Below, one piece after another: positions 1,279-17,251 of a stretch of DNA of 17,251 nucleotides. Source of the DNA: Thermoproteota archaeon (GTDB lineage Archaea > Korarchaeota > Korarchaeia > B14-G2); assembly GCA_003661385.1 (NCBI GenBank), contig QMWA01000015.1, forward strand, positions 1 to 17,251, in the 5' to 3' direction. Within the stretch, counting starts at the first letter, position 1. The number at the start of each line of letters is the position of its first letter. The notes below the pieces were generated by a model, which did no database searches, was not told where the DNA came from, and saw only the letters and a program-made list of their open reading frames with translations. A program made the position numbers and the translations under genes.

Positions 1279-2493
1279 ATGAACCAGAAGGTAATAGGGT
1301 TAAGTGGAGACGAAGCTGTAGCCTATGCAGTCAAGCAGTGCAACGTGGATGTGGTAGCAGCATACCCCATAACACCTCAGACCATAATAGTCGAGAGGAT
1401 AGCAGACTACGTAAACGACGGCGAGGTAGACCTCGAGTACATACCAGTGGAAAGCGAGCACAGCGCGATGAGCGCCTGCATAGGCGCAGCTGCAGCTGGC
1501 GCCAGAGCTTTCACAGCTACAGCAGCAAACGGGCTGGCACTGATGCATGAAGTCGTGTACATAGCCTCAAGCCTCAGGCTCCCAATCGTGATGGCTATAG
1601 TCAACAGAGCGCTATCAGGGCCGATATGCATACACTGCGACCACAGCGACACGATGGCTGAGAGAGACTCAAGCTGGATACAGCTCTACGTCGAGGATGC
1701 ACAGGAGGCCTATGACACAGTGATCCAGGCGTTCAGGATAGCAGAGGACCCAAGTGTCCTGCTCCCAGTTATGGTGAACCTAGATGGCTTCATAGTAAGC
1801 CACACGCTACAAGACGTAAGCGTCCTGCCAGATGAGGTTGTCTCAGAGTTCGTAGGGAAGAGGCAAGTAGCAAGCATAGACGTAGCAGGCAAGACGGTCC
1901 CAATGATGCTCCACCCAGATAACCCACTCACCTTCGGGCCACTAGACCTATTCGACTACTACTTCGAGCACAAGAGGCAGCAGGAGGAGGCCATAAAGGC
2001 AGCTAGAGACGTGATCAAGAGGGTAAACGAAGAGTACTACAAGATAAGCGGCAGAAGATACGGGGATGGGATGGTAGACTCCTACAGGATGGATGACGCT
2101 GACATAGCTGTAGTAGGCTTAGGCTCAACGATGGGAACTGTCAAGGAGGTCGTAGATGAAGAGAGGAGTAGAGGGCTGAAGGTGGGAGCTATAAGAATAA
2201 GGTCGTTCAGGCCGTTTCCAGTAGACCAGCTGCTGGAGGAGCTAAGCAGGGTGAAGGTGGTAGGAGTCCTGGATAGGAGCGGAGCATATGGCGCACCTGG
2301 AGCACCAGTATACAACGAGATAAGATCTCTGCTCTACGACCTAGACAAGAGGCCAGCTGTCCTAGGCTACATCTACGGAATCGGAGGCAGAGACATGCCA
2401 CCAGAGCTAGTCAAGTCTGTCATAAGGGATCTGGAAAACGCGTTAGAGAAGCCTCCCGAGACCAAGGTCGAGTTCATTGGGGTGAGAGAATGA
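1279..2493 (+). CDS. porA: 2-oxoacid:ferredoxin oxidoreductase, alpha subunit
   Basis: Alpha subunit (404 residues, normal length) carrying the pyrimidine-binding (PYR) domain of the thiamine diphosphate enzyme and the transketolase C-terminal-like domain II. The YPITPQ motif near residue 30, the ESEHSAMSACIGAAAAGARAF region and the MAERDSSWIQLYVEDAQEAYD block are characteristic of pyruvate-type PorA. The C-terminal domain begins near residue 275 (ADIAVVGLGSTMGTVKEVVD) and includes a GVLDRSGAYGAPGAP loop. It follows porD with no intergenic base and overlaps porB in ATGA (2490-2493). A CxxC pair (C117, C120) sits in the loop just before the conserved HSD. The archaeal homologues I recall have non-cysteine residues there. 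Assignment to the family is certain; pyruvate as substrate is likely. Confidence 0.92.
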   Translation: MNQKVIGLSGDEAVAYAVKQCNVDVVAAYPITPQTIIVERIADYVNDGEVDLEYIPVESEHSAMSACIGAAAAGARAFTATAANGLALMHEVVYIASSLRLPIVMAIVNRALSGPICIHCDHSDTMAERDSSWIQLYVEDAQEAYDTVIQAFRIAEDPSVLLPVMVNLDGFIVSHTLQDVSVLPDEVVSEFVGKRQVASIDVAGKTVPMMLHPDNPLTFGPLDLFDYYFEHKRQQEEAIKAARDVIKRVNEEYYKISGRRYGDGMVDSYRMDDADIAVVGLGSTMGTVKEVVDEERSRGLKVGAIRIRSFRPFPVDQLLEELSRVKVVGVLDRSGAYGAPGAPVYNEIRSLLYDLDKRPAVLGYIYGIGGRDMPPELVKSVIRDLENALEKPPETKVEFIGVRE

Positions 2494-3455
2494 GCGGAGA
2501 GTGGAGTCCCACGCTGAAGGAGCTCGCAAAAAAGCCTGAGCTTCTTGCATCAGGACATAGGCTGTGTGCAGGCTGTGCAGCAGGGACTATAATCAGAGCA
2601 ATCCTCAAGGCCGCCTGGAAGCCTATTGTAGCAGTAAACGCGACAGGCTGTCTTGAAGTAGCCACGACAATATACCCCTACACCTCATGGAGGATACCCT
2701 GGATACATAATGCATTCGAGAACGCAGCTGCCACCGCAGCTGGGATAGCTAGAGCAAGAGACAAGCTTCTGAGAGACGGGCGGCTAGACAAGGACTACCA
2801 CGTGATAGCATTCGCAGGAGACGGAGGCACATATGACATCGGAATCCAAGCCCTCTCAGGCGCCCTGGAGAGGAGAGAGAAGATACTCTACGTGCTCTAT
2901 GATAACGAAGCGTACATGAACACTGGAATCCAGAGGTCAGGTGGAACACCAATGGCAGCATGGACTACAACTAGCCCAGCAGGGCGCAAGATACCAGGCA
3001 AGATAGAGTGGAAGAAGCCTATAGCGAGGATAGTAGCTGCACATGACGTGCCATACGTGGCTACAGCTACACCATGGCAGTGGAGAGACCTCGTCGTCAA
3101 AGCCAGGAAGGCACTGGAGGCTGATGGCCCAGCATTCCTACACGTGCTCTCACCATGCCCAAGAGGCTGGAGGTTTGACACAAACCTGAGCATAGAGATG
3201 GCTAGGCTAGCTGTGCAGACGTGCTTCTTCCCGCTCTACGAGATAGTAGACGGCGAGAAGTACGTGATAACAGGGTACAGCAGGAGCATAGCGATGAACC
3301 CCAAGCTGAAGAAGCCTGTAGTAGAGTACCTGAAGCCACAAGGCAGATTCAGGCACCTCTTTAAGCCAGAGAACGCCAGGCTCCTAGAGGAGATACAGAG
3401 GAGAGTAGACTACGAGTGGGAGAGGCTCCTCAAGCTAGCTGGATATAGGAGCTAG
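2490..3455 (+). CDS. porB: 2-oxoacid:ferredoxin oxidoreductase, beta subunit
   Basis: Beta subunit (321 residues) holding thiamine diphosphate and the proximal [4Fe-4S] cluster. The expected four cluster cysteines are present: C26 and C29 (LCAGC), C54 (ATGCLE) and C223 (SPCPRGW). The Mg/ThDP motif GDGGTYDIG starts at about residue 110 and is completed by YDNEAYMNTGIQRSGGTP. The IYPYTSWRIPWIHNAFENAAATAAGIA stretch (about residues 60-90) is typical of archaeal pyruvate/2-oxoisovalerate enzymes. GGTGA lies 4 bases before the ATG. It is the last gene of the porCDAB operon, and its stop overlaps by four bases the end of the convergent GH3 pseudogene. No lesion seen, so the complex should be functional. 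Confidence 0.93.
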   Translation: MSGEWSPTLKELAKKPELLASGHRLCAGCAAGTIIRAILKAAWKPIVAVNATGCLEVATTIYPYTSWRIPWIHNAFENAAATAAGIARARDKLLRDGRLDKDYHVIAFAGDGGTYDIGIQALSGALERREKILYVLYDNEAYMNTGIQRSGGTPMAAWTTTSPAGRKIPGKIEWKKPIARIVAAHDVPYVATATPWQWRDLVVKARKALEADGPAFLHVLSPCPRGWRFDTNLSIEMARLAVQTCFFPLYEIVDGEKYVITGYSRSIAMNPKLKKPVVEYLKPQGRFRHLFKPENARLLEEIQRRVDYEWERLLKLAGYRS

Positions 3456-4532
3456 AACAGGGCTGAGAGGGCTCTAGCAACCTTCTCAGCAGCCATCAGC
3501 ACCCTCGTCCTCACCCTTTTTCTTCCAACTACCCTGAAGAGCACCCCATCCTTGAGGCAGAGGACTACATCACCCATCCTATATCTCGGAGCTAGCGGCG
3601 TTGAGGCAATCAAGCACCCTGACTGCCCTGCTTTAAGCTCATGTAGCATCTTAGTCTTCCCACCCGCCTCAACCTCAAGCACATAAAAGTCGTACATTGG
3701 AGCTAGCCCAGGCTCCAGGGTGAGCTGGGAGGCAAAAGACCCCTCAGCAGCACCATACACCTCAAAGATGTCAGCTCCACCATATAGCTTCCTCAGCGAT
3801 GGAGTGTAAGCCCAGTGTATGCCAGGTACTCCAGCCAAGAACATCACCTGGAGGCTTAGAGGCCTCCTAGCCTTCATCAGCCCCCCAGGAAGTACAGTAG
3901 TATAGGTGATCCCACTGTGAACGTGAGCTTCAGGCCACGTGTTGCCTCGTAAACGCGCCTAAAGAGCTACATCCACTCCCTCATCGTAAGTGGAGCTACA
4001 AGCTCCCTGAAGAAGGATGGTGGAGGCGATACGTCAACCCCCAGCTTAAGTACAATGTAGGCTGCATGAATAGCGGAAACATGGCTGCATGGGGCTCTAG
4101 ATGGGCCAGAGCCAGCATACATCATCACTGGGGAGGGATGTTTGAGAGGCAGACTCCCTCCAGGAACTCCCTGAGCTCCGCGTAAGCCACCATAGCTCTA
4201 GCAGCAGACATGGTCCTCAGCTCTATGTCCACATCAGATATGGGTATGGCTTTAGGTGAGCCTGTTGAGCCCGATGAGAGAGCATAGGCTACAGGGGGAG
4301 CTGGTAGGAGGACATGATACTCGCCTTGGGCTACAGCTCTGAGAAGCTGCCTGACCTGCCTGTACTCTGCTATTGGGAGCCTAGTGAACCCTTGTATAGG
4401 CAAGTCTGCGTATCGAGACCAGGCTTCAGTCTCTGAGTATATCCTCGAGAGGAGCTCCATGGCATGCTCCTGTCCCCAAGCTGGGTCCCTGAGAGAGCCC
4501 ACCCACCTGCTATAGCATGCAAGCTCACGCAT
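3452..4532 (-). pseudogene. GH3-family acyl-adenylating enzyme, decayed
   Basis: Three pieces of one protein lie in order on the minus strand. Piece 1 (4532 to about 4135) holds the ATP-binding P-loop SSGSTGSPKAIP. Piece 2 (about 4136 to 3882, another frame) reads MMYAGSGPSRAPCSHVSA and continues to LYFLGG. Piece 3 (3877-3452) holds VYGAAEGSFASQL, LHELKAG and YRMGDVV. The order and motifs fit GH3-type acyl-acid adenylate/amido synthetases, distant relatives of phenylacetate-CoA ligase. Lesions are a frameshift in the C-run near 4130-4137, an in-frame TAG at 3967-3969, and a frameshift in the G-run near 3885-3890; each frameshift would be repaired by one extra base. The reconstructed protein is about 360 residues and stops soon after the AEK motif, so the usual C-terminal domain is gone, ending against porB. 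I see no convincing promoter. A sequencing error could explain one frameshift, but hardly all three defects and the truncation. Confidence 0.8.
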
Positions 4533-4545
4533 GTAGCTTAGCTAC
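4533..4545. repeat. 13-base perfect palindrome upstream of the pseudogene
   Basis: GTAGCTTAGCTAC has six-base arms around a central T and ends immediately before the minus-strand ATG of the pseudogene. It could be a remnant operator, or chance; it is far too short for a tRNA or a terminator with a T-tract. The rest of the 95-base gap to 4628 contains only the TATA box described separately. Confidence 0.3.
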
Positions 4546-4595
4546 CTAATGTGAAGCACATGGGCCTGTAGACGCCTTCGAGTACGTAGCCTAAC

Positions 4596-4602
4596 TTTAT
4601 AA
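4596..4602 (+). promoter_or_regulatory. TATA box for a leaderless transcript
   Basis: TTTATAA is centred about 29 bases before the GTG at 4628, so transcription is expected to begin at or just before the start codon. This supports the GTG start of the TIM-barrel protein gene. Confidence 0.6.
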
Positions 4603-4627
4603 GACTGCCTACAGTAGCTTGTGAGAG

Positions 4628-5371
4628 GTGATTCCCCTGTACACTACGATTGAAGGCAGGAAGGTGCCGCTGATAAGCATAGGAACCTCCCCCTTCATTG
4701 GCGCAGGTCAGTTTGGTGTTAAGGGGCTCCTATGGAGGAGCAGATTCCTCTATAATGCGCCAGCCATGGCTGAGCTGATGATGAAGAGCTATGAGTTTGG
4801 AGCTAAGGGAGCTCACATCATACCCCTGGGGGACATCCCTAAAGCTGTTAAGCTCGTGAGGAAAGAGTACCCCGACTTTGTAGTGATAGGCAGCACCCCC
4901 CCAGAGGGTGTTGAAAAGGGTATCAAGACTCTGATCGACCTGGACGCTGAGATAATATTCGTGCATGGCTCTATAGCTGATAGCCTGAGGTATGAGCTTC
5001 TAGACAGGTACTGCAGGATCATAGAGGAAGCTGGCGTGATCTCTGGTGTAGCTACGCACAGGCCGGTTCACACTGTCAGATACGTGGAGAACAACTGCCT
5101 ATGTAAGGCTGTCCTGCTCCCATTCAACCCAGTAGGGTACAGCATGGAGAACAGGAGGCTGCTGGAGGAGATAGTAGACAACAGCAGCTTGAGCTTCATA
5201 GCCATGAAAGCCCTTGCAGCAGGCTCTGTTAGACCTGAAGAGGCGTTTAAGTACATATCACAGCACAACATAAAGGCTGTTACGGTAGGGCTGGTGAGCA
5301 AGGAGGAAGCTAAGGAGACTATACATGCAGCACTCAAGTACCTCAAGGGGGATGGAGGGAAAGCCACCTGA
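4628..5371 (+). CDS. TIM-barrel-like protein, aldo/keto-reductase-like C-terminus, function unknown
   Basis: A 247-residue soluble protein with regularly alternating strands and helices that suggest a (beta/alpha)8 barrel. The opening VPLISIGTSPFIGAGQFG and the strand ends VVIGSTPPEG, EIIFVHGS, SGVATHRPVHTV and FIAMKALAAGSVRPEEAF follow a barrel-like rhythm; the last block and the following AVTVGLVSKEEAKET resemble the C-terminal strands of aldo/keto-reductase-like proteins. I see no complete aldo/keto reductase catalytic tetrad, so calling it a reductase would go too far. It may be an archaeal family without assigned function. The GTG start is set by a TATA box 29 bases upstream, suggesting a leaderless transcript. 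Its 3' end overlaps the convergent PurM-like gene by 29 bases. No cofactor-binding motif is obvious. Confidence 0.7.
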   Translation: MIPLYTTIEGRKVPLISIGTSPFIGAGQFGVKGLLWRSRFLYNAPAMAELMMKSYEFGAKGAHIIPLGDIPKAVKLVRKEYPDFVVIGSTPPEGVEKGIKTLIDLDAEIIFVHGSIADSLRYELLDRYCRIIEEAGVISGVATHRPVHTVRYVENNCLCKAVLLPFNPVGYSMENRRLLEEIVDNSSLSFIAMKALAAGSVRPEEAFKYISQHNIKAVTVGLVSKEEAKETIHAALKYLKGDGGKAT

Positions 5372-8089: not shown

Positions 8090-8845
8090 ATGGAGACTGT
8101 AGTGGTCAAAGTCGGTGGCTCAGCGATAACATGGAAGAGCAAGGTAAAGGCAGCTAGAGTAGATGCAGTGAAGGCCATTGCAAGAGAGCTGAGAAAGGCA
8201 TCTAGCAAAGCTAGGATCCTACTAGTCCATGGAGCAGGGTCATTTGGACACCCGATAGCTAGAAGGTATGGGATAACAACGTCATCTGGAGGAGCTCATG
8301 GAGTTGCTGAAACCAGGCTGTCGCTGCTGGAGCTAAGCTACATGCTCCTGAAGGAGCTTAACGAGGCTGGGGTGAAAGCCACGCTACTGAGCCCTATGGC
8401 TCTCATGGTAGCTAGAAGGGGAAGGATAGACAAGATATTCACAGAGCCCATAGCAAGGCTCCTAGACCACGGCATAATGCCGGTGCTCCATGGAGATGTC
8501 GTTTCAGACCTTGAAGCATGCTTCACAGTGGTGTCTGGAGACCAGATTGCATGCAGGCTTGCAGTGGAGCTTAAAGCCAGCAGAGTCGTATTTGGAGTCG
8601 ATGTGGACGGGGTTCTAGACGAGAGGGGAGGTGTTGTCAGGGAGCTGAGCTTAAGTAGGCTGTCAGAGTACAGCATGCAGCAAAAAGCCCCCGACGTGAC
8701 TGGGGGGATGGCTGGGAAGCTGATGGAGGCTAAAGCTGCCTTGGAGGCGGGTATACCTGTTGTAGTGGGGAACGCGGTTAAGCCTGGAGTGCTCTCAAAG
8801 ATGATATGTGGGGAGCCTGTCAGGTGTACTCTCGTCACTCTATAG
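8090..8845 (+). CDS. isopentenyl phosphate kinase
   Basis: A 251-residue amino-acid-kinase-fold enzyme that phosphorylates isopentenyl phosphate to isopentenyl diphosphate, the last step of the archaeal variants of the mevalonate pathway. The glycine-rich VVVKVGGSAIT opens the protein, and the HGAGSFGH motif (47-54) contains the diagnostic His54 that binds the substrate phosphate in this family and separates it from glutamate-5-kinase and UMP kinase relatives. GVDVDGVLDE and the DVTGGMAGKLMEA block form the ATP-binding half; the latter includes the conserved TGGM-x-GK. GGTGGAGA precedes the ATG. It lies 8 bases behind GGPP synthase and supplies that enzyme's C5 substrate. Its last 11 bases overlap the convergent DUF35 gene. 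Confidence 0.93.
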   Translation: METVVVKVGGSAITWKSKVKAARVDAVKAIARELRKASSKARILLVHGAGSFGHPIARRYGITTSSGGAHGVAETRLSLLELSYMLLKELNEAGVKATLLSPMALMVARRGRIDKIFTEPIARLLDHGIMPVLHGDVVSDLEACFTVVSGDQIACRLAVELKASRVVFGVDVDGVLDERGGVVRELSLSRLSEYSMQQKAPDVTGGMAGKLMEAKAALEAGIPVVVGNAVKPGVLSKMICGEPVRCTLVTL

Positions 8846-9308
8846 CTGGCTTCCAGTACTTTATGTCGTTTATTGAGCCAACCCTCTCCTCAGGAGGCTT
8901 CCAGACAGCCTTGACCATCATCCCAGGGTAGACCTCATCTGGGCTTGCCTCACCAATCCTGTGTATTAGGCCTCCAGTCACTCCATCGAATGCTATGAAC
9001 GCGATGACTTCAGGGGGATCTAGCTTGTTGCCGTCTGCATCCACTGTAAGGACGGTGAAAGCCTCTATGTAGCCCTCATCTAGGAGCTCAACCCACTCAT
9101 CTAGCTCACTAAAGCAGTGCTCACAGTATATCCTCGGCGGCAGATACGTTAGGTTGCACTTCCTGCACCTAGTTGCCACTATCTTGCCTTCCTTAAGCCC
9201 CCTGAAGAACTTCTCGCCAGCTCTACCGAGCGTGTATATGTAGTCTGTCTCCATGTCACCAAGCCAGTATCTAGCTCTACCTGCCTCAGTTATCTTCTCG
9301 ACTGCCAT
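8835..9308 (-). CDS. zinc-ribbon/OB-fold DUF35 protein, second copy
   Basis: A 157-residue member of the DUF35 acyl-CoA-associated OB-fold family, which in archaea and actinobacteria typically partners thiolases, HMG-CoA synthase or other acyl-CoA enzymes. An N-terminal helix (about 25-45) precedes the rubredoxin-like zinc ribbon with C48, C51, C62 and C65 (CRKC...YCEHC), then an OB-fold beta barrel. The last 23 complete codons before the final two (AVWKPPEERVGSINDIKYWKP core) are identical at DNA level to those of the gene upstream. The ATG at 9308 is preferred over GTG 9314 because GAGGTG lies 5 bases before it and the GTG overlaps the upstream stop. It follows its paralogue directly and so is co-transcribed and translationally coupled. 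No thiolase gene is in the window, so the partner is unknown. Confidence 0.88.
   Translation of the reverse strand: MAVEKITEAGRARYWLGDMETDYIYTLGRAGEKFFRGLKEGKIVATRCRKCNLTYLPPRIYCEHCFSELDEWVELLDEGYIEAFTVLTVDADGNKLDPPEVIAFIAFDGVTGGLIHRIGEASPDEVYPGMMVKAVWKPPEERVGSINDIKYWKPAIE
8847..8915 (-). repeat. 69-base exact repeat, copy A (3' end of second DUF35 gene)
   Basis: Identical base for base to 9323-9391 in direct orientation, offset 476. It covers exactly 23 codons in the same frame in both genes. Flanking sequence on both sides is unrelated or strongly diverged, so the boundaries are sharp. Confidence 0.95.
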
Positions 9309-9310
9309 GC

Positions 9311-9838
9311 TCACACCTCAATTGGCTTCCAGTACTTTATGTCGTTTATTGAGCCAACCCTCTCCTCAGGAGGCTTCCAGACAGCCTTGACTCTGACACC
9401 AAACTTTTCTCCTCGCATCCATGCTGGAAGATCCTCCTTGCTGACCTCACCTATCTTGTGGAGAATCCCAACGTTAGGTGGCGTGTCGTCCAGGTCTATG
9501 ACAGCTACTATGATAGGCTCCTTAAGCCTCTTGGCGTCAGCTGAAAGGTAGGATATCGAGTAGGTAGCTACTCTGCCTGCATCCCTCACATAGACCCACT
9601 CGTCGGTCGGCTTAAAGCACAGCTCACAGTACATCCTAGGAGGCACAAGGATCCTGCCGCACTTGCTGCACTTCCTGCCTATTAGCCTCCCGTTTTTCAG
9701 CTCCTCCAGAAACCTCGTTATAGCTACTCCAGCTGACCAAGCATACCTAGCTTTAGGCCTCCAGAATGTGGTAAGAACCCGCTTCTCTCTGATGTCAGCT
9801 TCCTTCAAGGGGGTACCAGGGTACTTGCTGATCTTCAC
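9311..9838 (-). CDS. zinc-ribbon/OB-fold DUF35 protein, first copy
   Basis: A 175-residue paralogue of the following gene, with a longer N-terminus (about 15 extra residues before the helix). The zinc ribbon cysteines are C57, C60, C71 and C74 (CSKC...YCELC), followed by the OB-fold (WVYVRDAGRVATYSISYLSADAK...) and the shared C-terminal tail ending in YWKPIEV. Outside the tail the two proteins differ at well over half of positions, so the duplication is old. DUF35 proteins shuttle or present acyl-CoA intermediates to thiolase-superfamily partners; having two suggests two different or a heteromeric complex. The start is GTG at 9838 with GGTGG 11 bases upstream and a TATA-like TTTAAG farther upstream, overlapping the lplA stop. 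No other plausible start fits. Confidence 0.88.
   Translation of the reverse strand: MKISKYPGTPLKEADIREKRVLTTFWRPKARYAWSAGVAITRFLEELKNGRLIGRKCSKCGRILVPPRMYCELCFKPTDEWVYVRDAGRVATYSISYLSADAKRLKEPIIVAVIDLDDTPPNVGILHKIGEVSKEDLPAWMRGEKFGVRVKAVWKPPEERVGSINDIKYWKPIEV
9323..9391 (-). repeat. 69-base exact repeat, copy B (3' end of first DUF35 gene)
   Basis: Partner of 8847-8915. All synonymous positions agree, unlike the rest of the two genes. Confidence 0.95.
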
Positions 9839-9876: not shown

Positions 9877-10677
9877 CTACTTAAACCTTCTACGCTCCAG
9901 GTTCCATTCTCTCGACGAGTACTTCCTCCTCAGCTCACCTGCTCTCCTGAGCTCCCAAAGCGTGAGAGGCCTTCGCTCAAAGCTCACACCCAAGACCTCA
10001 CTGAACCCTGCTACCACGCAGTCAGCTACCTCCCACCTTGAGACAGAGCAGCCTAGGAGCTGGGATATGGAGGATATCCTCGTAGAGAGCTTCTCAGCAG
10101 CCTCCTCCGGTGAGCTAAATGGGTGCTTCAGGACAGTGAACATCTTCACTAGGTCAACTGAGACTAGCAGAGTTCCATGCTGCAGGAAGTAGCCTCCTCT
10201 TATTAGCTGAGCGCTCCCTGATATCTTAGCTGACCCTACTCTTATGTTCGGGCACTCTCTGCTGCTTCCCATCGATACTGATGCCTTGATGCCGAGGAGC
10301 TTTAGCCCAGATGTTATGGACTCTATTATCCTCTGGTACACACCTATGGTGTCGGATGCTCCTATGGACTTGAGGTCAGCTACCACACTGTATGTGAGCT
10401 CGCCAGCTGAGTCGTGGTAGACTGCTCCTCCACCAGTCGGCCTTCTGACAGCCTGTACACCGAGCCTCCTGCAGGCCTCGAGGTCAATGTACTGCTCCAT
10501 GTCCTGGAAGTAGCCTACTGAGGCAGCTGATGGAAGCCACGTGTATAGCCTGAGGGTGTTGGGGGCTAGGCCTCTCATCCTAGCGTCTAGCATAGCCTCG
10601 TCTATAGCCATGTTCAGGTAGGCGTCTCCAGGTGGGCTTACAACAAGCCTCCACTTCAAGACTCTAACCTGTGACAT
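9877..10677 (-). CDS. lplA: lipoate-protein ligase A
   Basis: A 266-residue lipoate/octanoate ligase of the biotin/lipoate A/B protein ligase fold, which attaches lipoate to a lysine of an acceptor protein such as glycine-cleavage H protein or a 2-oxoacid dehydrogenase E2. The signature RRPTGGGAVYHD covers residues 78-89, and the active-site lysine block GSAKISGSAQ has K151; GGYFLQHGTLLVSVDL follows as expected. The C-terminus (about 40 basic residues ending NLERRRFK) replaces the LplA C-terminal domain of bacteria; in archaea that domain is often a separate protein (LplB), which is not in this window. I prefer ATG 10677 to TTG 10695 because it is closer to the conserved start and reduces the overlap with the upstream gene to 14 bases. 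No lipoylated acceptor is encoded here. Confidence 0.9.
   Translation of the reverse strand: MSQVRVLKWRLVVSPPGDAYLNMAIDEAMLDARMRGLAPNTLRLYTWLPSAASVGYFQDMEQYIDLEACRRLGVQAVRRPTGGGAVYHDSAGELTYSVVADLKSIGASDTIGVYQRIIESITSGLKLLGIKASVSMGSSRECPNIRVGSAKISGSAQLIRGGYFLQHGTLLVSVDLVKMFTVLKHPFSSPEEAAEKLSTRISSISQLLGCSVSRWEVADCVVAGFSEVLGVSFERRPLTLWELRRAGELRRKYSSREWNLERRRFK
9881..9887 (-). promoter_or_regulatory. possible TATA box for the DUF35 pair
   Basis: On the minus strand this reads GGTTTAA and is centred about 46 bases before the GTG at 9838. A transcript starting near 9858 would have a leader of about 20 bases containing GGTGG. It overlaps the last codons of lplA. Confidence 0.35.
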
Positions 10678-10993
10678 AGGATAAGGGGCTCTCAAGCCTC
10701 GTTATCTTAAATATGAACACGTCCCCGACAGAAGGCCTACCTAGGTCCTGAAATTCCTCCATTGAAAGCGATATGATCACGTCTGGGAGCTCAGGTGTCC
10801 TGTCGAGCTCTATGGGGAGGCCCATCGCCCTGAAAACCTGAGCTGTGGCTCTGGCGACGCTTCTAGCAACCTCCTCTTCCTCACTTGAGTAGTAGCGCTC
10901 CTCACTCTCCCTGAACTCCTTGAGTGCAAGCTCCACCCTATTGCCGAGAGACTTCACATTAATGACAGCGTATCTCTTCTCTATGCTAGCCAT
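10664..10993 (-). CDS. small hypothetical protein, weak resemblance to arcadin-1
   Basis: A 109-residue protein, cytoplasmic, without cysteines or membrane segments. An N-terminal strand pair (YAVINVKSLGNRVELALKEF) is followed by an acidic linker (SEERYYSSEEEEV), an amphipathic helix (VARSVARATAQVFRAMG) and a C-terminal block VIISLSMEEFQDLGRPSVGDVFIFKI. Length and the LxxEEFxxLGRPxVGD ending remind me of the arcadin-1 accessory protein of the crenactin cytoskeleton, but I cannot confirm this and no crenactin gene is nearby. The ATG at 10993 is chosen over GTG 11002 because GAAGGTG lies 6 bases before it. It has its own TATA box inside the end of the upstream gene and overlaps lplA by 14 bases, so the two are probably co-transcribed. 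Confidence 0.7.
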   Translation of the reverse strand: MASIEKRYAVINVKSLGNRVELALKEFRESEERYYSSEEEEVARSVARATAQVFRAMGLPIELDRTPELPDVIISLSMEEFQDLGRPSVGDVFIFKITRLESPLSYVTG

Positions 10994-11023
10994 CACGTAC
11001 ACCTTCTAGATGGGTTCTCTAGC

Positions 11024-12001: not shown

Positions 12002-13681
12002 ATGTCACATGTTGAGAGGCCATGGTTCAAGTTTTATCCTGAAAAGGTTCCTAAGAGCATAGAGTACCCGAGGAAGACACTGCACCAGGTGCTTCGAGAG
12101 ACTGCTAAGAGGCTACCCGACAAGGCTGCGCTGATCTACTTCGGGAAGAAGGTTACATTTAGGGAGCTAGATGAGCTAAGCGACAGGTTTGCCGCCGCGC
12201 TAGCTGACATGGGTGTAGGGAAGGGAGATAAGGTAGCGATAATGCTCCCTAACTGCCCCCAGTTCGTGATAGCATACTACGGGGCGCTGAAGGCTGGAGC
12301 AATCAATGTCCCATTAAACCCCCTGTACACGCCTAGGGAGGTAGAGTATGCTGTGAACAACTCTGAAGCGAAGGTCATTGTTGTACTCGACCAGACTTAC
12401 AATAAGGTCAAGGAGGTCAAAGACAGAACCAGGCTTGAGCACGTGATATACACTAGCGTAGTGGACTTCATGCCTCCGCTCATCAAGTTCTTAGCCAGGG
12501 TCTTCAAGGGGCTGAAGCCTCTGAAGATACCTGAGGCAACCAGCTTCCTAGAGCTCCTCGGGAAGTACCCGCCTAAGCCACCTGAGGTCGATGTTAAGCC
12601 AGACGACCTAGCGATGCTCCTTTACACGGGAGGCACTACAGGCGTGCCTAAGGGGGTTATGCTCACGCACTTCAACCTGCTAAGCAATGCAGTCCAGACC
12701 TGCACAGTCGGGTTCATAGAGGAGGACTCGATTGCCCTCGGGGTGCTTCCGTTCTTCCACTCGTATGGGCTCACAACCGTGCTGAACTCATCTATATACA
12801 AGGGTATTACAGCTGTAATCCTGCCTAGGTTCTCGCCTGAAGATGTCTTTAAGGCTATCAAGAAGTACAAGCCTACGCACTTCCCTGGAGTGCCCACAAT
12901 GTACATTGCTTTGCTGAACCACCCTGCATTAAGCAAGTACAGGGAGCACATGAGGAGCATAAGGTTCTGCATATCGGGAGCAGCTCCGCTTCCACTTGAG
13001 ATAGCTAAGAAGTGGAGGGAGGTCACTGGAGGCATGATAGTAGAGGGCTATGGGCTGTCTGAGGCGAGCCCAGTGACGCACGTTAACCCGCTTGATGACA
13101 TAAAGAAGGTGAAGTTCGGCTCGATAGGCGTGCCAGTCCCGGATACGGACGCTAAGATAGTGGACTTGGAGACCGGTGAGAAGGAGCTGCCTCCAGGTGA
13201 AGTCGGAGAGCTTGTGGTGAAGGGCCCTCAGGTGGGCTTAGGCTACTGGAAGATGCCCGAGGAGACTGAGGAGACCTTCAGAGAAGGCTGGCTTTACACA
13301 GGTGACATAGCTAAGATGGATGAGGACGGCTACTTCTACATAGTAGACAGGAAGAAGGACATGATAAATGTGGGTGGCTTGAAGGCTTGGCCTAGGGAGA
13401 TAGAGGAGGTCCTCTACCAGCACCCTGCAGTCAAGCTGGCTGCTGTAGTCGGTGTTCCAGACGAGTTCTATGGTGAAGTGCCTAAGGCCTTCATAGTGCT
13501 TAGGGACGAGTACAAGGGCAAGGTCAAGCCAGGGGAGATAATAGACTTCTGCAAGGAGAGGCTGGCCAAGTACAAGGTGCCGAAGCACATAGAGTTCAGA
13601 GACGAGCTGCCAACCACGCTAGTCGGGAAGGTGCTCAGGAGAGTGCTAAAGGAGGAGGAGCTGAAGAAGAGGGAAAGCTAA
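12002..13681 (+). CDS. acyl-CoA synthetase (AMP-forming), long-chain fatty acid-CoA ligase-like
   Basis: A 559-residue ANL-superfamily enzyme that activates a carboxylic acid to an acyl-adenylate and then to the CoA thioester. The P-loop LLYTGGTTGVPKG covers residues 206-218; the VEGYGLSEASPVTH (A5) motif follows; GWLYTGD (429-435) gives the ribose-binding Asp435; the DRKKDMINVGGLKAWPREIE hinge comes next; and the catalytic lysine is K543 (GKVLRR). All core motifs are intact. The frame stays open upstream to 11768, but the start is ATG 12002: the family usually opens with RPWFKFYPEKVPK, and the TATA box at 11965-11973 excludes earlier starts. The sequence is closest in style to FadD-type long/medium-chain ligases; aromatic acids cannot be excluded. 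It stands 23 bases before the dehydratase/reductase subunit genes and may supply their acyl-CoA substrate. Confidence 0.92.
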   Translation: MSHVERPWFKFYPEKVPKSIEYPRKTLHQVLRETAKRLPDKAALIYFGKKVTFRELDELSDRFAAALADMGVGKGDKVAIMLPNCPQFVIAYYGALKAGAINVPLNPLYTPREVEYAVNNSEAKVIVVLDQTYNKVKEVKDRTRLEHVIYTSVVDFMPPLIKFLARVFKGLKPLKIPEATSFLELLGKYPPKPPEVDVKPDDLAMLLYTGGTTGVPKGVMLTHFNLLSNAVQTCTVGFIEEDSIALGVLPFFHSYGLTTVLNSSIYKGITAVILPRFSPEDVFKAIKKYKPTHFPGVPTMYIALLNHPALSKYREHMRSIRFCISGAAPLPLEIAKKWREVTGGMIVEGYGLSEASPVTHVNPLDDIKKVKFGSIGVPVPDTDAKIVDLETGEKELPPGEVGELVVKGPQVGLGYWKMPEETEETFREGWLYTGDIAKMDEDGYFYIVDRKKDMINVGGLKAWPREIEEVLYQHPAVKLAAVVGVPDEFYGEVPKAFIVLRDEYKGKVKPGEIIDFCKERLAKYKVPKHIEFRDELPTTLVGKVLRRVLKEEELKKRES

Positions 13682-13704
13682 CCCCCTATTTTTGGCTGGT
13701 TGCA

Positions 13705-14751
13705 TTGGATCCGCTTGCTGAGCTGATGCAGGCTGTCAAAGCCAGAGGTAGGGGAGCTGCAATCGGATACGTGTGCAGCTATACCCCTGAGGAGCTGCTT
13801 GAAGCCTCAGGTGAAAGCTACACTAGGGTGATTGGCTCCAACAGCACTGAGCTAGCTGACTCAGCCATACCAACCTTCACATGCAGGTTTGCTAGGCGGT
13901 GTCTGCAGCAGATGCTGGAGGGAGAGCTCAAGCGTGTAGTCGGAGCATATACCTGCGACACAGTCAGGGGGGTTGCAAGCATAGCAAGCTGGAGAGGAGT
14001 TGAATCCTGCTTCATCAACATACCTAGAGACATAAGCAAGAAGAGGAGCTTGGAGTATCTTGTTAGGGAGCTTGAGAAGCTAGCGGAGTTCCTCGGGGCA
14101 GCAGAGGGTGGGGTCGAGGAGGCTATCGAGGTGTGTGAGGAGGACAGGAGGGCTGTGATGAGGCTTGCTGAGCTTAGAGCAGTGGAGGAGCCTCCAGTCA
14201 CAGGGGTGGAAGCCTACCTAGTTGAGCTAAGCGGGATGCTCATGCCAAAGAGGAGACATCTGGAGCTGGTTCAAGAGCTGCTGGATACGCTGCCCTCTAG
14301 GAGTGGAGCCACTGGAGCTAGGGTCATGCTGATTGGCAGCACCCTGACGAACATCAAGCTGCTAGAAGCCATTGAGGCGGAGGGCTGTGTTGTCGTATAC
14401 GATGACCTCTGCACTGGATGCAGGTTCTACTGGGGGCTAGCACCAGCTTCAGGTAAGCCTCTTGAGAGGATAGCAGCCAGGTACGTCAGTAGAGCTAAGT
14501 GCCCCTGTGTCACACCGTTCTCTGAGAGAGCAGAGTACATCACTGAGCAAGCCAGGAGGTTTAGGGTTCAGGGCGCTATATTCCTGCTTCAGAAGTTCTG
14601 TGACCCCCACCTGTTCGAGTACCCTGCGTTAAGGGAGAGGCTTGAGTCCATCGGCGTAGAGACCATGCTCTTTGAAACTGAGGAGGGGGAGGCTGAGGTT
14701 GAGAAGCTCAGGATAGCTGTCGGAGGCTTCATAGAGAGGCTTGGTGGCTGA
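13705..14751 (+). CDS. 2-hydroxyacyl-CoA dehydratase/benzoyl-CoA reductase family, BcrC/HgdB-like subunit
   Basis: A 348-residue subunit of the ATP-driven radical Fe-S enzymes that either dehydrate (R)-2-hydroxyacyl-CoA or reduce aromatic/enoyl acyl-CoA. Family blocks are GYVCSYTPEELLEASG (from residue 21), TFTCRF (C60), YTCDT (C84), YDDLCTGCRFYWG (C236, C239), AKCPC (C266, C268) and KFCDPHLFEYP (C299). C60, C236 and C299 match the positions that ligate the [4Fe-4S] cluster in the family. The DDLCTG-R-Y/F pattern is nearer to BcrC and YjiM-like proteins than to HgdB or FldC as I recall them. The start is TTG at 13705 with no good ribosome binding site; ATG 13726 is an alternative. The downstream gene begins one base after the stop, so the pair is made together as a heterodimer. 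Confidence 0.88.
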   Translation: MDPLAELMQAVKARGRGAAIGYVCSYTPEELLEASGESYTRVIGSNSTELADSAIPTFTCRFARRCLQQMLEGELKRVVGAYTCDTVRGVASIASWRGVESCFINIPRDISKKRSLEYLVRELEKLAEFLGAAEGGVEEAIEVCEEDRRAVMRLAELRAVEEPPVTGVEAYLVELSGMLMPKRRHLELVQELLDTLPSRSGATGARVMLIGSTLTNIKLLEAIEAEGCVVVYDDLCTGCRFYWGLAPASGKPLERIAARYVSRAKCPCVTPFSERAEYITEQARRFRVQGAIFLLQKFCDPHLFEYPALRERLESIGVETMLFETEEGEAEVEKLRIAVGGFIERLGG

Positions 14752-14752
14752 G

Positions 14753-15955
14753 ATGAGGGCTAGCAGGCTGGCTTCAGCTAGGGAGATATCCTATGCCATA
14801 GGGGCTAGAGTGCTTGCTGCAAAGCTCTACAGAGAGCAGGGTGGGAAGGTAGCTTGGGTGACAGCACTGAGCCCAGTTGAGGTGCTCTACGCTGCTGGCA
14901 TCATGCCACTCTACCCGGAGCAGTACTCTGCTGCATGCGGTGCATTCAAGACCTCACTTAAGCTAGTGGAGAAAGCTGAGGAAGCAGGCTACTCACAGGA
15001 CTTATGCTCCTACTTCAGGTGCCACATTGGCCACGTGCTCTCTGGAGAGGGGCCTTTAGGGGGGCTTGCTAAGCCTGACATCCTTCTTCTCTCAGGAAAT
15101 CTCTGCCTTACCAGGGTGAAGTGGTGGGAGATCCTCTCAGAGAAGCTTAAGGCTCCGCTTTTCCACCTTGATATCCCCTTTGTAGCAGAGGAGGACAGCT
15201 GGCACCTCGAGTATGTCAGGTGGCAGATCGAGGAGCTAATGGAGTTCCTAGCTGAAGCCGGGGTTGAGGTCACGCTAGATAGCCTGAAGAGGAGCGTTGA
15301 GCTCTCAGATGAGGCTTCTAAGCTCTGGAATGAGGTCATGGACCTCAGGAAGGTGAGGCCATGCCCGATGGGGGCTAGAGACGCGTTCACAAGTATGTTC
15401 CTGATAGTGACATGCCCAGGACACCCTGTTGCAGTCGTCCTCCTCAAGAGGCTGCTCAAGGAGGTCAGGGAGAGGGTAGCTGATGGCAGGGGAGCACTCG
15501 AGGAGGAGAAGTTCAGGGTTATGCTGGATAACATACCGACATGGTATGACCTGTGGTTTGTCGACTACCTGGAGGAAAGAGGAGCAATATCAGTGGCGGA
15601 GACATACACTTACTCAGTGTGGTCTCCTAGGCTAGACTTCTCTAAGCCTCTTGAGAGCTTAGCTAGGAAGTACCTCTATGCAGGGCTTAATGAGAGCTTT
15701 GAGAGGAGGATAAAGGCTGCACTAGAGGTAGCTAAGGAGTTTGAGGTAGATGGGGCGGTGATCCACGTGAACAGAAGCTGCAAGCCATACTCATCTTGGG
15801 CTTACGAGCTCAAGAACGCCCTTAGAGATGAGCTTGAGATCCCAAGTGCAGTGTTTGAGGCTGACATGACAGACCCCAGGGTGTTCTCCAGAGAGCAGGT
15901 CAGGACTAGGCTAGATGCCTTAATAGAGGCGATGAGTGAGAGGGCTAGGAGGTAG
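14753..15955 (+). CDS. 2-hydroxyacyl-CoA dehydratase/benzoyl-CoA reductase family, BcrB/HgdA-like subunit
   Basis: A 400-residue partner of the previous subunit. It opens with a helix, then VAWVTALSPVEVLYAAGIMPLYPEQYSAACGA, the family signature; AGYSQDLCSYFRCHIGH carries C85, SGNLCLTRVKWW carries C118, and HVNRSCKPYSSW carries C343. The RSCKPYS element and the FEADMTDPRVFSREQVRTRLDA ending are what I know from BcrB/BadE-type benzoyl-CoA reductase subunits, which makes a reductase-like member more likely than a plain dehydratase, though not certain. The three cysteines would hold one [4Fe-4S] cluster; the acyl-CoA site would lie between the two subunits. ATG 14753 is one base behind the previous stop; upstream in-frame TTG and GTG codons overlap the preceding gene and are unlikely. 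The glutamine amidotransferase gene follows after 3 bases. Confidence 0.88.
   Translation: MRASRLASAREISYAIGARVLAAKLYREQGGKVAWVTALSPVEVLYAAGIMPLYPEQYSAACGAFKTSLKLVEKAEEAGYSQDLCSYFRCHIGHVLSGEGPLGGLAKPDILLLSGNLCLTRVKWWEILSEKLKAPLFHLDIPFVAEEDSWHLEYVRWQIEELMEFLAEAGVEVTLDSLKRSVELSDEASKLWNEVMDLRKVRPCPMGARDAFTSMFLIVTCPGHPVAVVLLKRLLKEVRERVADGRGALEEEKFRVMLDNIPTWYDLWFVDYLEERGAISVAETYTYSVWSPRLDFSKPLESLARKYLYAGLNESFERRIKAALEVAKEFEVDGAVIHVNRSCKPYSSWAYELKNALRDELEIPSAVFEADMTDPRVFSREQVRTRLDALIEAMSERARR
15948..15953 (+). promoter_or_regulatory. ribosome binding site of the amidotransferase gene
   Basis: GGAGGT lies in the last codons of the BcrB-like gene, 5 bases before the ATG at 15959. It fixes the start and indicates efficient coupled translation. 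Confidence 0.7.
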
Positions 15956-15958
15956 GAC

Positions 15959-16555
15959 ATGAGAATACTCGTGGTGAATCTGTACCTAGATAGGGAGAGG
16001 CATGGAAGCAGCTTCAGCAGGCTCCTCAGTGAGCTAGAGAAGGCTTCAGGTGCCATGCTTGAGCCAATATACTACACTGAAGTAGGTGATATAGGAGGCT
16101 ATGACTGCGTGGTACTCAGTGGGACAGAAGGCTACCTAAGCGAGGAGGAGACCACCAGAAGGTTCAGCAAGCTTGCTTCAGCCATCAGAGAGTCTGAGAC
16201 TCCTGTACTCGGCGTATGCGGAGGGCACCAGCTGATTGGGGTAGCATACTCGAGTAGAGTAGTGAGCTTAGGTAAGCTGGTCAAGGGGTATAGGGAGGTC
16301 AGGGTTCTGGTTGATGACGAGGTGTTTGATGGGCTCCCAGAGACCATAGTTGTATGTGAGAGCCACAGGGAGTGTGTTGAGAGGCTCCCAGAGGGCTTCA
16401 CCAAGCTGGCTTCCTCAAGCGACACTGAAATAGAGGCAATGAAGCTCAAGCACCCACTCAGGTATGGCTTCCAGTTCCACCCCGAGAGAAGCGATGAAAA
16501 GCACCCTCATGGCAGAGTGATACTCGAGAACTTCTTCAGGATCCTGCGTAGGTGA
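15959..16555 (+). CDS. stand-alone class I glutamine amidotransferase
   Basis: A 198-residue class I (triad) glutaminase, similar in outline to the glutaminase subunit of archaeal GMP synthase. It would hydrolyse glutamine and hand ammonia to a partner synthetase, or act as a hydrolase on a gamma-glutamyl compound. The triad is visible: nucleophile C87 in GVCGGHQ, and H174 and E176 in FQFHPE. LSGTEGY replaces the common LSGGP oxyanion strand of GuaA, and the EYG element of GuaA is absent, so this is probably not the GuaA subunit. No synthetase domain or partner gene is in the window. It is the last gene of the acyl-CoA ligase/BcrC/BcrB-like series, 3 bases behind the BcrB-like gene. Its 3' end overlaps the convergent carbonic-anhydrase-like gene by 20 bases. 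Confidence 0.85.
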   Translation: MRILVVNLYLDRERHGSSFSRLLSELEKASGAMLEPIYYTEVGDIGGYDCVVLSGTEGYLSEEETTRRFSKLASAIRESETPVLGVCGGHQLIGVAYSSRVVSLGKLVKGYREVRVLVDDEVFDGLPETIVVCESHRECVERLPEGFTKLASSSDTEIEAMKLKHPLRYGFQFHPERSDEKHPHGRVILENFFRILRR

Positions 16556-17093
16556 GGAAGCCGCTGACATGAGACTTAGCCAGCCTATGGTAGAATAAGG
16601 CGTGGTTTCTTATCATCGAGTAGGCTACGTCATCCACCTTCTTCACTGCCTTAGCTGGGACACCTACCACAACAGACCTAGGAGGCACCTTCATGCCCTC
16701 GAGAACTACAGCGCCCATCCCGACTATAGACCCCTCTCCGATCACTGCCTGGTTGAAGACCACCGCCCTCACCCCGATCATGACTGTGTCCTCTACTCTG
16801 CAGCCGTGGACTACTGCTCCGTGAGCTATGGTCACGTAGCTCCCGACCTCAACTGGAGTGTGTGAGACTAGCTTGCTGCCCTCATATATGTCTCCACCGT
16901 GGAGCACAGCGTTTTCCTGGATGTTGGTGTACTCCCCTACCCTTATCCTGGCGACATCTCCCCTCAGGACTGCTCCAGGGAAGACTGAGCTTCCTCTTCC
17001 GATTTCCACGTCTCCTACAATGAGGGCTTGAGGCGATATCATGGCTTCAGGGTGTATCTTAGGCCTCTTACCCTTGTACTCGAGTATAGGCAT
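16536..17093 (-). CDS. gamma-carbonic-anhydrase family protein (left-handed beta helix)
   Basis: A 185-residue hexapeptide-repeat protein of the gamma-carbonic anhydrase/YrdA/PaaY group, normally a trimer with zinc between subunits. The zinc ligands are present: H65 (NAVLHG), H91 and H96 (IAHGAVVHGC), together with R44/D46 (RGD) and Q59, which match the active-site residues of the Cam enzyme. The acidic loop of Cam is missing, as in CamH and PaaY. A 15-residue insertion (about 67-80, GGDIYEGSKLVSHTP) sits at the turn after H65. It starts one base after the stop of the activator ATPase gene, so it is co-transcribed with it. PaaY-type members hydrolyse CoA thioesters in phenylacetate metabolism, so a thioesterase role is an alternative to CO2 hydration here. 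Confidence 0.88.
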   Translation of the reverse strand: MPILEYKGKRPKIHPEAMISPQALIVGDVEIGRGSSVFPGAVLRGDVARIRVGEYTNIQENAVLHGGDIYEGSKLVSHTPVEVGSYVTIAHGAVVHGCRVEDTVMIGVRAVVFNQAVIGEGSIVGMGAVVLEGMKVPPRSVVVGVPAKAVKKVDDVAYSMIRNHALFYHRLAKSHVSGFLTYAGS

Positions 17094-17094
17094 C

Positions 17095-17251
17095 TCATCT
17101 CACCTTCTCCAGTGCTATCACAGCAGCTCCTAGAGCACCTACCACCTGAGGGTCTATGGGAGGCTTCTTAACTTCTATCCCAAGCTTCTCCTCTAGAGCC
17201 TTGAGGAAACCCTCGTTCTTTGCTACACCACCTGTGACGACGACATCCCTC
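17095..17251 (-). CDS. activator ATPase of dehydratase/reductase (BcrA/BadF/HgdC family), C-terminus only
   Basis: Only the last 51 codons are inside the window; the gene runs off the right edge. The reading VVVTGGVAKNEGFLKALEEK and the ending PPIDPQVVGALGAAVIALEKVR are the textbook C-terminus of the BadF/BadG/BcrA/BcrD/HgdC family: the nucleotide-binding TGGVAKN motif, then the PQ-x-x-GALGAA helix. These ASKHA-fold homodimeric (or BcrAD heterodimeric) proteins hold one [4Fe-4S] cluster between subunits and use ATP hydrolysis to push a low-potential electron into the dehydratase or reductase. Its closeness to the BcrC/BcrB-like genes, although on the other strand, makes it their likely activator. 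The cluster cysteines lie in the unseen part. It is 1 base upstream of the gamma-carbonic-anhydrase-like gene. Confidence 0.9.
   Translation of the reverse strand, partial: RDVVVTGGVAKNEGFLKALEEKLGIEVKKPPIDPQVVGALGAAVIALEKVR

Follow-up and report, generated by a model that had tools for sequence, protein, structure and literature searches.

Predicted mosaic of a BzdN-like and a HadB-type subunit in an ATP-activated acyl-CoA enzyme encoded on a korarchaeotal contig

Does an archaeal gene pair that resembles both benzoyl-CoA reductases and 2-hydroxyacyl-CoA dehydratases reduce its substrate or dehydrate it? This question is raised by contig QMWA01000015.1 (17,251 nucleotides, analysed whole and called the window below; G000:C15), which belongs to a korarchaeotal genome of 1.74 Mb in 206 contigs that is 91% complete. 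The pair is preceded by an acyl-CoA ligase and followed, at the contig end, by part of an activator gene. Since sequence and predicted structure relate the small subunit to BzdN and the large subunit to HadB, that is, to different characterised enzymes, the predicted architecture is very probably a mosaic of a BzdN-like small and a HadB-type large subunit. The preliminary description, made from the letters of this DNA, had listed the ligase, both subunits and the C-terminus of the activator, and profile searches recovered all four:

12002-13681, plus strand: AMP-forming acyl-CoA ligase, long-chain FadD-like, 559 amino acids (Pfam AMP-binding, 371 bits)
13705-14751, plus strand: small (beta, BzdN/HadC-type) subunit, 348 amino acids, TTG start (PF06050, 220 bits)
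14753-15955, plus strand: large (alpha, HadB-type) catalytic subunit (PF06050, 257 bits)
17098-17251, minus strand: C-terminal 51 residues of a BcrA/HgdC-type ATPase activator (PF01869, 33 bits; TIGR00241, 41 bits)

Both subunits pass the PF06050 (HGD-D) cut-off of 28.4 bits, and their genes are adjacent and coupled through a stop-start TGAGATG. For the large subunit, the ATG at 14753 (400 amino acids) is the preferred start and a TTG at 14741 (404 amino acids) is possible; its residues are numbered here from the TTG, with the ATG numbering in brackets.

The [8Fe-9S] double-cubane cluster of BzdN is ligated by Cys36, 73, 100, 263, 293 and 327, and its distal cubane is surrounded by Arg53, Arg267, Arg290 and His330 (PMC11971306). 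All six cysteines have aligned counterparts in the small subunit:

13774-13776, plus strand: C24, equivalent to BzdN C36, absent in the HadC/FldC type
13882-13884, plus strand: C60, equivalent to BzdN C73
13954-13956, plus strand: C84, equivalent to BzdN C100
14410-14412, plus strand: C236 (in DDLCTG), equivalent to BzdN C263, absent in the HadC/FldC type
14500-14502, plus strand: C266, equivalent to BzdN C293
14599-14601, plus strand: C299, equivalent to BzdN C327

The basic pocket of BzdN is retained as well, its four residues corresponding to R41, R240, R263 and H302 in the order given above. In the alignment, every clostridial HadC/FldC-type row has Pro or Leu at BzdN position 36 and Ala, Gly or Leu at position 263. 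The best match in the PDB by sequence is BzdN (179 bits, versus 116 for HadC), which is also the nearest fold to the AlphaFold2 model (mean predicted local distance difference test score, pLDDT, 94.3), with a Z score of 45.7 versus 41.5 for HadC. The small subunit is thus predicted from its sequence to carry an [8Fe-9S] double cubane. Three of the six ligands (C60, C236 and C299) had already been named, together with the three cluster cysteines of the large subunit, and all of these are present; C24, C84 and C266 had been overlooked.

The large subunit retains the cluster ligands and the catalytic glutamate of the family:

14918-14920, plus strand: E60 (E56), equivalent to the catalytic BzdO Glu65 and HadB Glu55
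15005-15007, plus strand: C89 (C85), [4Fe-4S] ligand, equivalent to BzdO C95
15104-15106, plus strand: C122 (C118), [4Fe-4S] ligand, equivalent to BzdO C128
15779-15781, plus strand: C347 (C343) in NRSCKPYS, [4Fe-4S] ligand, equivalent to BzdO C380

All four residues were assigned by alignment. W39 and Y91 are also retained, the positions of BzdO His131, Gln274 and Ser44 are occupied by Arg (R125), Ile (I265) and Val, and the long insert of BzdO is missing. The numbering of HadB Ser37 and Glu55 used here agrees with the printed sequence; a search for literature giving HadB Glu55 found no paper. By sequence, the best PDB match is HadB, with 190 bits versus 129 for BzdO. The model (pLDDT 93.6) is likewise nearest to HadB, with a Z score of 51.3 and a root-mean-square deviation (rmsd) of 1.7 over 392 residues, compared with 47.0 and 2.2 over 401 residues for BzdO and a far weaker 35.6 for the double-cubane cluster protein (DCCP). 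The RSCKPYS motif had been read as a sign of a reductase; the comparison turns this round, as the segment is nearer to that of the dehydratase HadB (NRSCKLMS) than to those of BzdO (NRGCEGLS) or MbdO (VKSCRTVS).

With two HGD-D-type subunits together, three cysteines and the catalytic glutamate, the pair belongs to the benzoyl-CoA reductase/2-hydroxyacyl-CoA dehydratase (BCR/HAD) family (PF06050), and it falls outside each of the characterised types. NCBIfam models gave the small subunit 175 bits for bzdN (cut-off 454), 118 for HadC (700), 101 for BcrC (421) and 136 for double_cubane (350), and the large subunit 234 for HadB (750), 133 for bzdO (449) and 120 for BcrB (487); the second subunit reached 101 bits with the double_cubane model. 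The pair is therefore no HadBC/FldBC dehydratase by subfamily models, by a single-cluster small subunit or by clade nesting; it shares the six cysteines of the Bzd type and neither the bzdN/bzdO scores nor His131 and Gln274; it misses the BcrB and BcrC models of the Bcr/Bad type; and it consists of two distinct genes that miss the double_cubane model, instead of the one-gene homodimer of DCCP. Bcr/Bad enzymes were represented by the NCBIfam models, MbdNO and a BcrB-like protein from genome G048 (335 bits, cut-off 487), as plasmids yielded no BcrB or BadE references. In trees computed with IQ-TREE under LG+C20, the large subunit stands on its own long branch, separate from the HadB/FldB clade (support 100/99); for the small subunit, a sister relationship to BzdN is weakly supported (97/78). 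The tree check suggested earlier, nesting within a known dehydratase clade, thus gave no such nesting, and profile scores and trees bear out the initial view of an archaeal, ATP-activated BCR/HAD module with its own ligase outside the characterised clades.

Our scan of about 85,000 species genomes yielded 74 loci, of which about 32 share 35-43% identity with the large subunit; their sources include Bathyarchaeota, Thermoprotei, Archaeoglobus, Desulfobacterota, Myxococcota, Chloroflexota, Bacillota and other groups. Twelve archaeal loci of close relatives are among them, and the earlier statement that few archaeal cases exist is outdated. In a set of 29 genomes from the window's phylum, a close homologue of the large subunit was found in only one other genome. 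Close relatives with both genes complete have the small-subunit gene directly upstream of the large one, as in bzdN-bzdO. The order ligase-small-large with close spacing is common to the window, L036 (Bacillota), L045 (Myxococcota) and L044 (Chloroflexota); in L036 and L045 the ligase is, as in the window, of the long-chain FadD type at the same position and with the same tight spacing. All six cysteines together with a HadB-type partner occur in L023, L025, L026, L027, L032, L036, L038, L039, L043, L045 and L047; six were also found in L029, where the large subunit was matched in the scan with its frame outside the set, and in L085, a more distant locus. L022, L024, L037 and L040 retain five of the six, with Ser in place of C293, L044 is without C263, L018 is without C36 and C263, the small subunits of L028, L042, L046, L048 and L049 are HadC-like, and L031, L033 and L034 have none of the scored cysteines next to intact large subunits. 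On the large-subunit tree, the state of six versus fewer cysteines switches at least six times, and the second cubane appears to have been lost stepwise among the relatives.

At the far end of this series, Gly, Ser, Gly, Glu, Ser and Asp replace the cysteines in the small subunits of L031 (8796-9920), L034 (8796-9920), L033 (2331-3230) and L079 (5478-6602). Their partners are HadB-type and intact, except for the large subunit of L079, which the contig end truncates, and the electron route in these pairs is unexplained.

How would such a mosaic work? The ligase would make the CoA thioester of an acid, presumably an aliphatic one, and ATP hydrolysis by the activator would drive low-potential electrons into the small subunit, which may keep them on its BzdN-type [8Fe-9S] double cubane. 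The HadB-type large subunit would receive an electron from there at its aqua-[4Fe-4S] cluster and reduce the carbonyl of the acyl-CoA to a ketyl radical. Most likely, an (R)-2-hydroxyacyl-CoA would lose water to give an enoyl-CoA, which could pass to the acyl-CoA dehydrogenases and beta-oxidation enzymes of the genome. We give this explanation as a whole, a heterodimeric ATP-activated radical acyl-CoA enzyme including dehydration, about even chances of being correct; its cluster types, electron path, reaction and substrate are what we infer.

Dehydration is favoured because of 2-hydroxyacid dehydrogenase neighbours and beta-oxidation genes. Three separate branches of the large-subunit relatives have D-2-hydroxyacid dehydrogenases adjoining the pair or close to it, of the PanE/KPR type in seven Bathyarchaeota loci and of the PF02826 type in L035, L041 and L044, which also carry 2-oxoacid ferredoxin oxidoreductases. 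D-mandelate dehydrogenases and further D-2-hydroxyacid dehydrogenases belong to the KPR family (PMC4230899). Several of the relatives' loci are accompanied by beta-oxidation genes, and the korarchaeotal genome itself has four acyl-CoA dehydrogenase and four enoyl-CoA hydratase family matches as well as one 3-hydroxyacyl-CoA dehydrogenase. The DDLCTG motif, previously taken as a hint of a reductase, is indeed shared with BzdN (DDQCSG), because its cysteine ligates the double cubane. However, it also occurs in related loci that have 2-hydroxyacid dehydrogenase neighbours, and it therefore marks the cluster and not the reaction.

Several observations weigh against this assignment. The window itself holds no 2-hydroxyacid dehydrogenase, full six-cysteine sets are mostly found where no such gene adjoins, and loci with one mostly miss a ligand, L043 being the exception. 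An association of ligand loss with such neighbouring genes is suggestive, with two supported independent pairs only. Furthermore, the double cubane of BzdN has been proposed as a two-electron store, and dehydration takes only a catalytic electron, so that the need for such a store is not obvious. Where HadB has Ser37, the large subunit has Ala, as does L035, which is itself dehydratase-like in its context. The small-subunit gene precedes the large one, as in bzdN-bzdO and contrary to clostridial HadBC-type loci. Moreover, the approximately unbiased (AU) test rejects a large subunit inside the HadB/FldB clade (p 0.012; log-likelihood 34 lower) and does not reject one joined to BzdO (p 0.34). 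The deep placement of the large subunit is thus open, and its affinity to HadB rests on similarity and active-site residues, not on the tree.

The closest alternative, possible though less likely, is a net ATP-driven reductase, with two electrons stored on the double cubane and used by the HadB-type subunit to reduce an enoyl-, conjugated or aromatic acyl-CoA, as BzdNO does with benzoyl-CoA. The complete ligand set with its BzdN-like pocket, the bzdN-bzdO gene order, the weak sister relationship of the small subunit to BzdN and the tolerated joining of the large subunit to BzdO all fit such an enzyme, but the catalytic His131 and Gln274 of BzdO are absent and the bzdN, bzdO, BcrB and BcrC models stay far below their cut-offs. 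The cluster alone does not imply reduction, because MbdNO reduces its substrate though MbdN is without three of the six ligands. The ligase also speaks against it and against the aromatic substrate considered in the preliminary description: its best NCBIfam model is the long-chain PRK06710 with 611 bits, whereas benzoate-CoA ligase reaches 298. Ring-cleavage enzymes were sought in three of the genome's four enoyl-CoA hydratase homologues (the 90-residue L106 was left out), and neither a ring-opening hydrolase nor a dienoyl-CoA hydratase was among their best matches; aromatic reduction has no specific support in the sequence of this genome.

Three further explanations are less probable. A strict but divergent member of the HadBC/FldBC/HgdAB dehydratases would explain why HadB is nearest to the large subunit in both sequence and structure. 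We consider it improbable, as the small subunit retains C24 and C236, neither of which is Cys in any clostridial HadC/FldC-type row, the AU test and the HadB and HadC scores disagree with it and the gene order is reversed. The six double-cubane ligands and the 136 bits of the small subunit would be compatible with a DCCP-like small-molecule oxidoreductase with a degenerate partner; yet this score is far from the cut-off of 350, the fold of the large subunit favours HadB over DCCP, an acyl-CoA ligase adjoins, and there are two distinct subunits, one with a single-cluster site, which makes this explanation very unlikely. Finally, the module could be dead or unexpressed and the activator a truncated remnant, given that the assembly holds just 51 of its residues. 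With all cluster ligands and the catalytic glutamate intact, we hardly expect this to be so; the truncation can be ascribed to the assembly, since the frame is open up to the contig end at 17251 in a genome of many contigs and incomplete recovery.

The activator fragment matches only the C-terminal 43-50 profile positions, as the contig edge ends the gene, and the cluster cysteines lie outside it. A second activase was sought across the assembly and none was found. One match, C159, was tried as a second activator and rejected: it is BadF/pantothenate-kinase-like, and its printed sequence is without a cysteine cluster motif. The activator is convergent with the subunit genes and belongs to a separate operon, because it lies on the minus strand and two genes are located in between:

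15959-16555, plus strand: class-I glutamine amidotransferase (PF00117, 84 bits; GMP synthase A model, 106 bits against a cut-off of 198)
16536-17093, minus strand: gamma-carbonic-anhydrase/PaaY/CaiE-like hexapeptide protein (129, 118 and 98 bits, all below cut-off)

The hexapeptide protein gene lies directly downstream of the activator tail. On the minus strand of 16536-17251, the activator stop and the start of the PaaY/CaiE-like gene nearly touch (TGAGATG), which suggests that the two are co-translated. The amidotransferase gene starts (15959) 3 bases past the large-subunit gene; no curated amidotransferase subfamily among those shown exceeds its cut-off for 15959-16555, and the subunit pairs of close relatives have no counterpart beside them.

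The contig fits its bin, because nearly all members of the class and phylum have a pyruvate oxidoreductase beta subunit with 60-63% identity to the one encoded at 2490-3455 and the G+C content is even along the contig (52-55%). As initially reported, archaeal lipid-synthesis genes are neighbours, namely a geranylgeranyl diphosphate synthase and a PF00696 kinase (isopentenyl phosphate kinase-like) 3-5 kb upstream. Further genes are found on the minus strand. At 3452-4532, two reading frames, one with SSGSTGSPKAIPI, resemble a split GH3-type or other adenylate-forming enzyme, apparently divided by a frameshift, and the 141-residue piece has no Pfam match. Two tandem ChsH2/DUF35 proteins (zinc ribbon and OB-fold) at 8835-9838 have no adjoining thiolase; thiolase and DUF35 genes occur together in several relatives of the subunit pair elsewhere. 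An Arcadin-1 homologue (crenactin system) at 10664-11002 overlaps a lipoate-protein ligase gene.

Two observations concern other genomes. In another metagenome-assembled genome (MAG) of the phylum, a pair at 2660-5191 of G028:C20 (L013/L114) scores above the NCBIfam cut-offs for BzdN (503, cut-off 454) and BzdO (628, cut-off 449), making this korarchaeotal relative a candidate carrier of a Bzd-type benzoyl-CoA reductase. In Archaeoglobus (L027 and L039), the six-cysteine pair lies beside an aspartate/glutamate-type racemase and a five-gene cluster in common with L036 that is transporter-like by its arrangement alone; racemase and cluster may point to the substrate.

In the published view, double cubanes are known only from DCCP and BzdN and are abolished in the dehydratases, and the 2025 study of BzdNO proposed that new catalysis arose in the family through loss of a sub-cluster from the double cubane (PMC11971306). 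Our search of open-access literature brought up no account of a double-cubane subunit paired with a HadB-type one. We suggest, tentatively and with the odds somewhat against it, that the mosaic pairs form a third BCR/HAD branch, distinct and widespread, whose double-cubane storage subunit serves a HadB-type catalytic subunit. This branch would be the missing intermediate predicted between double-cubane proteins and dehydratases, and it might carry out net ATP-driven reduction of non-aromatic acyl-CoAs. The loci offer natural intermediates, HadB-type subunits whose partners range from the full six ligands to none, and the proposal of sub-cluster loss becomes directly testable with a few purified proteins. 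They also place double-cubane/HadB-type chemistry in Korarchaeota, Archaeoglobus and Bathyarchaeota, and annotations of 'benzoyl-CoA reductase' in archaeal MAGs that are based on family matches may really denote the mosaic type.

Among known systems, BzdNO, the class I benzoyl-CoA reductase of denitrifiers (PDB 8S02, PMC11971306), is alike in the cysteines, pocket and fold of the small subunit and in gene order, but differs in His131, Gln274, Ser44 and the long insert, all absent here, with identities of 33% and 25%. MbdNO, a 3-methylbenzoyl-CoA reductase (PDB 9G87), and BcrCB share the overall fold and family; in the alignment, MbdN lacks three of the six double-cubane ligands, unlike the korarchaeotal small subunit. 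The (R)-2-hydroxyisocaproyl-CoA dehydratase HadBC (PDB 3O3M) resembles the large subunit in the three cysteines, Glu55, the Trp and NRSCK, at 32% identity, whereas HadC has a single cluster with no equivalents of C36 and C263, the gene order is reversed and a joint clade is rejected. DCCP (PDB 6ENO, 7YZM) has the same six-cysteine double-cubane ligation as the small subunit, but it is a homodimer with two double cubanes, while the pair described here would be a heterodimer whose large subunit has three ligands.

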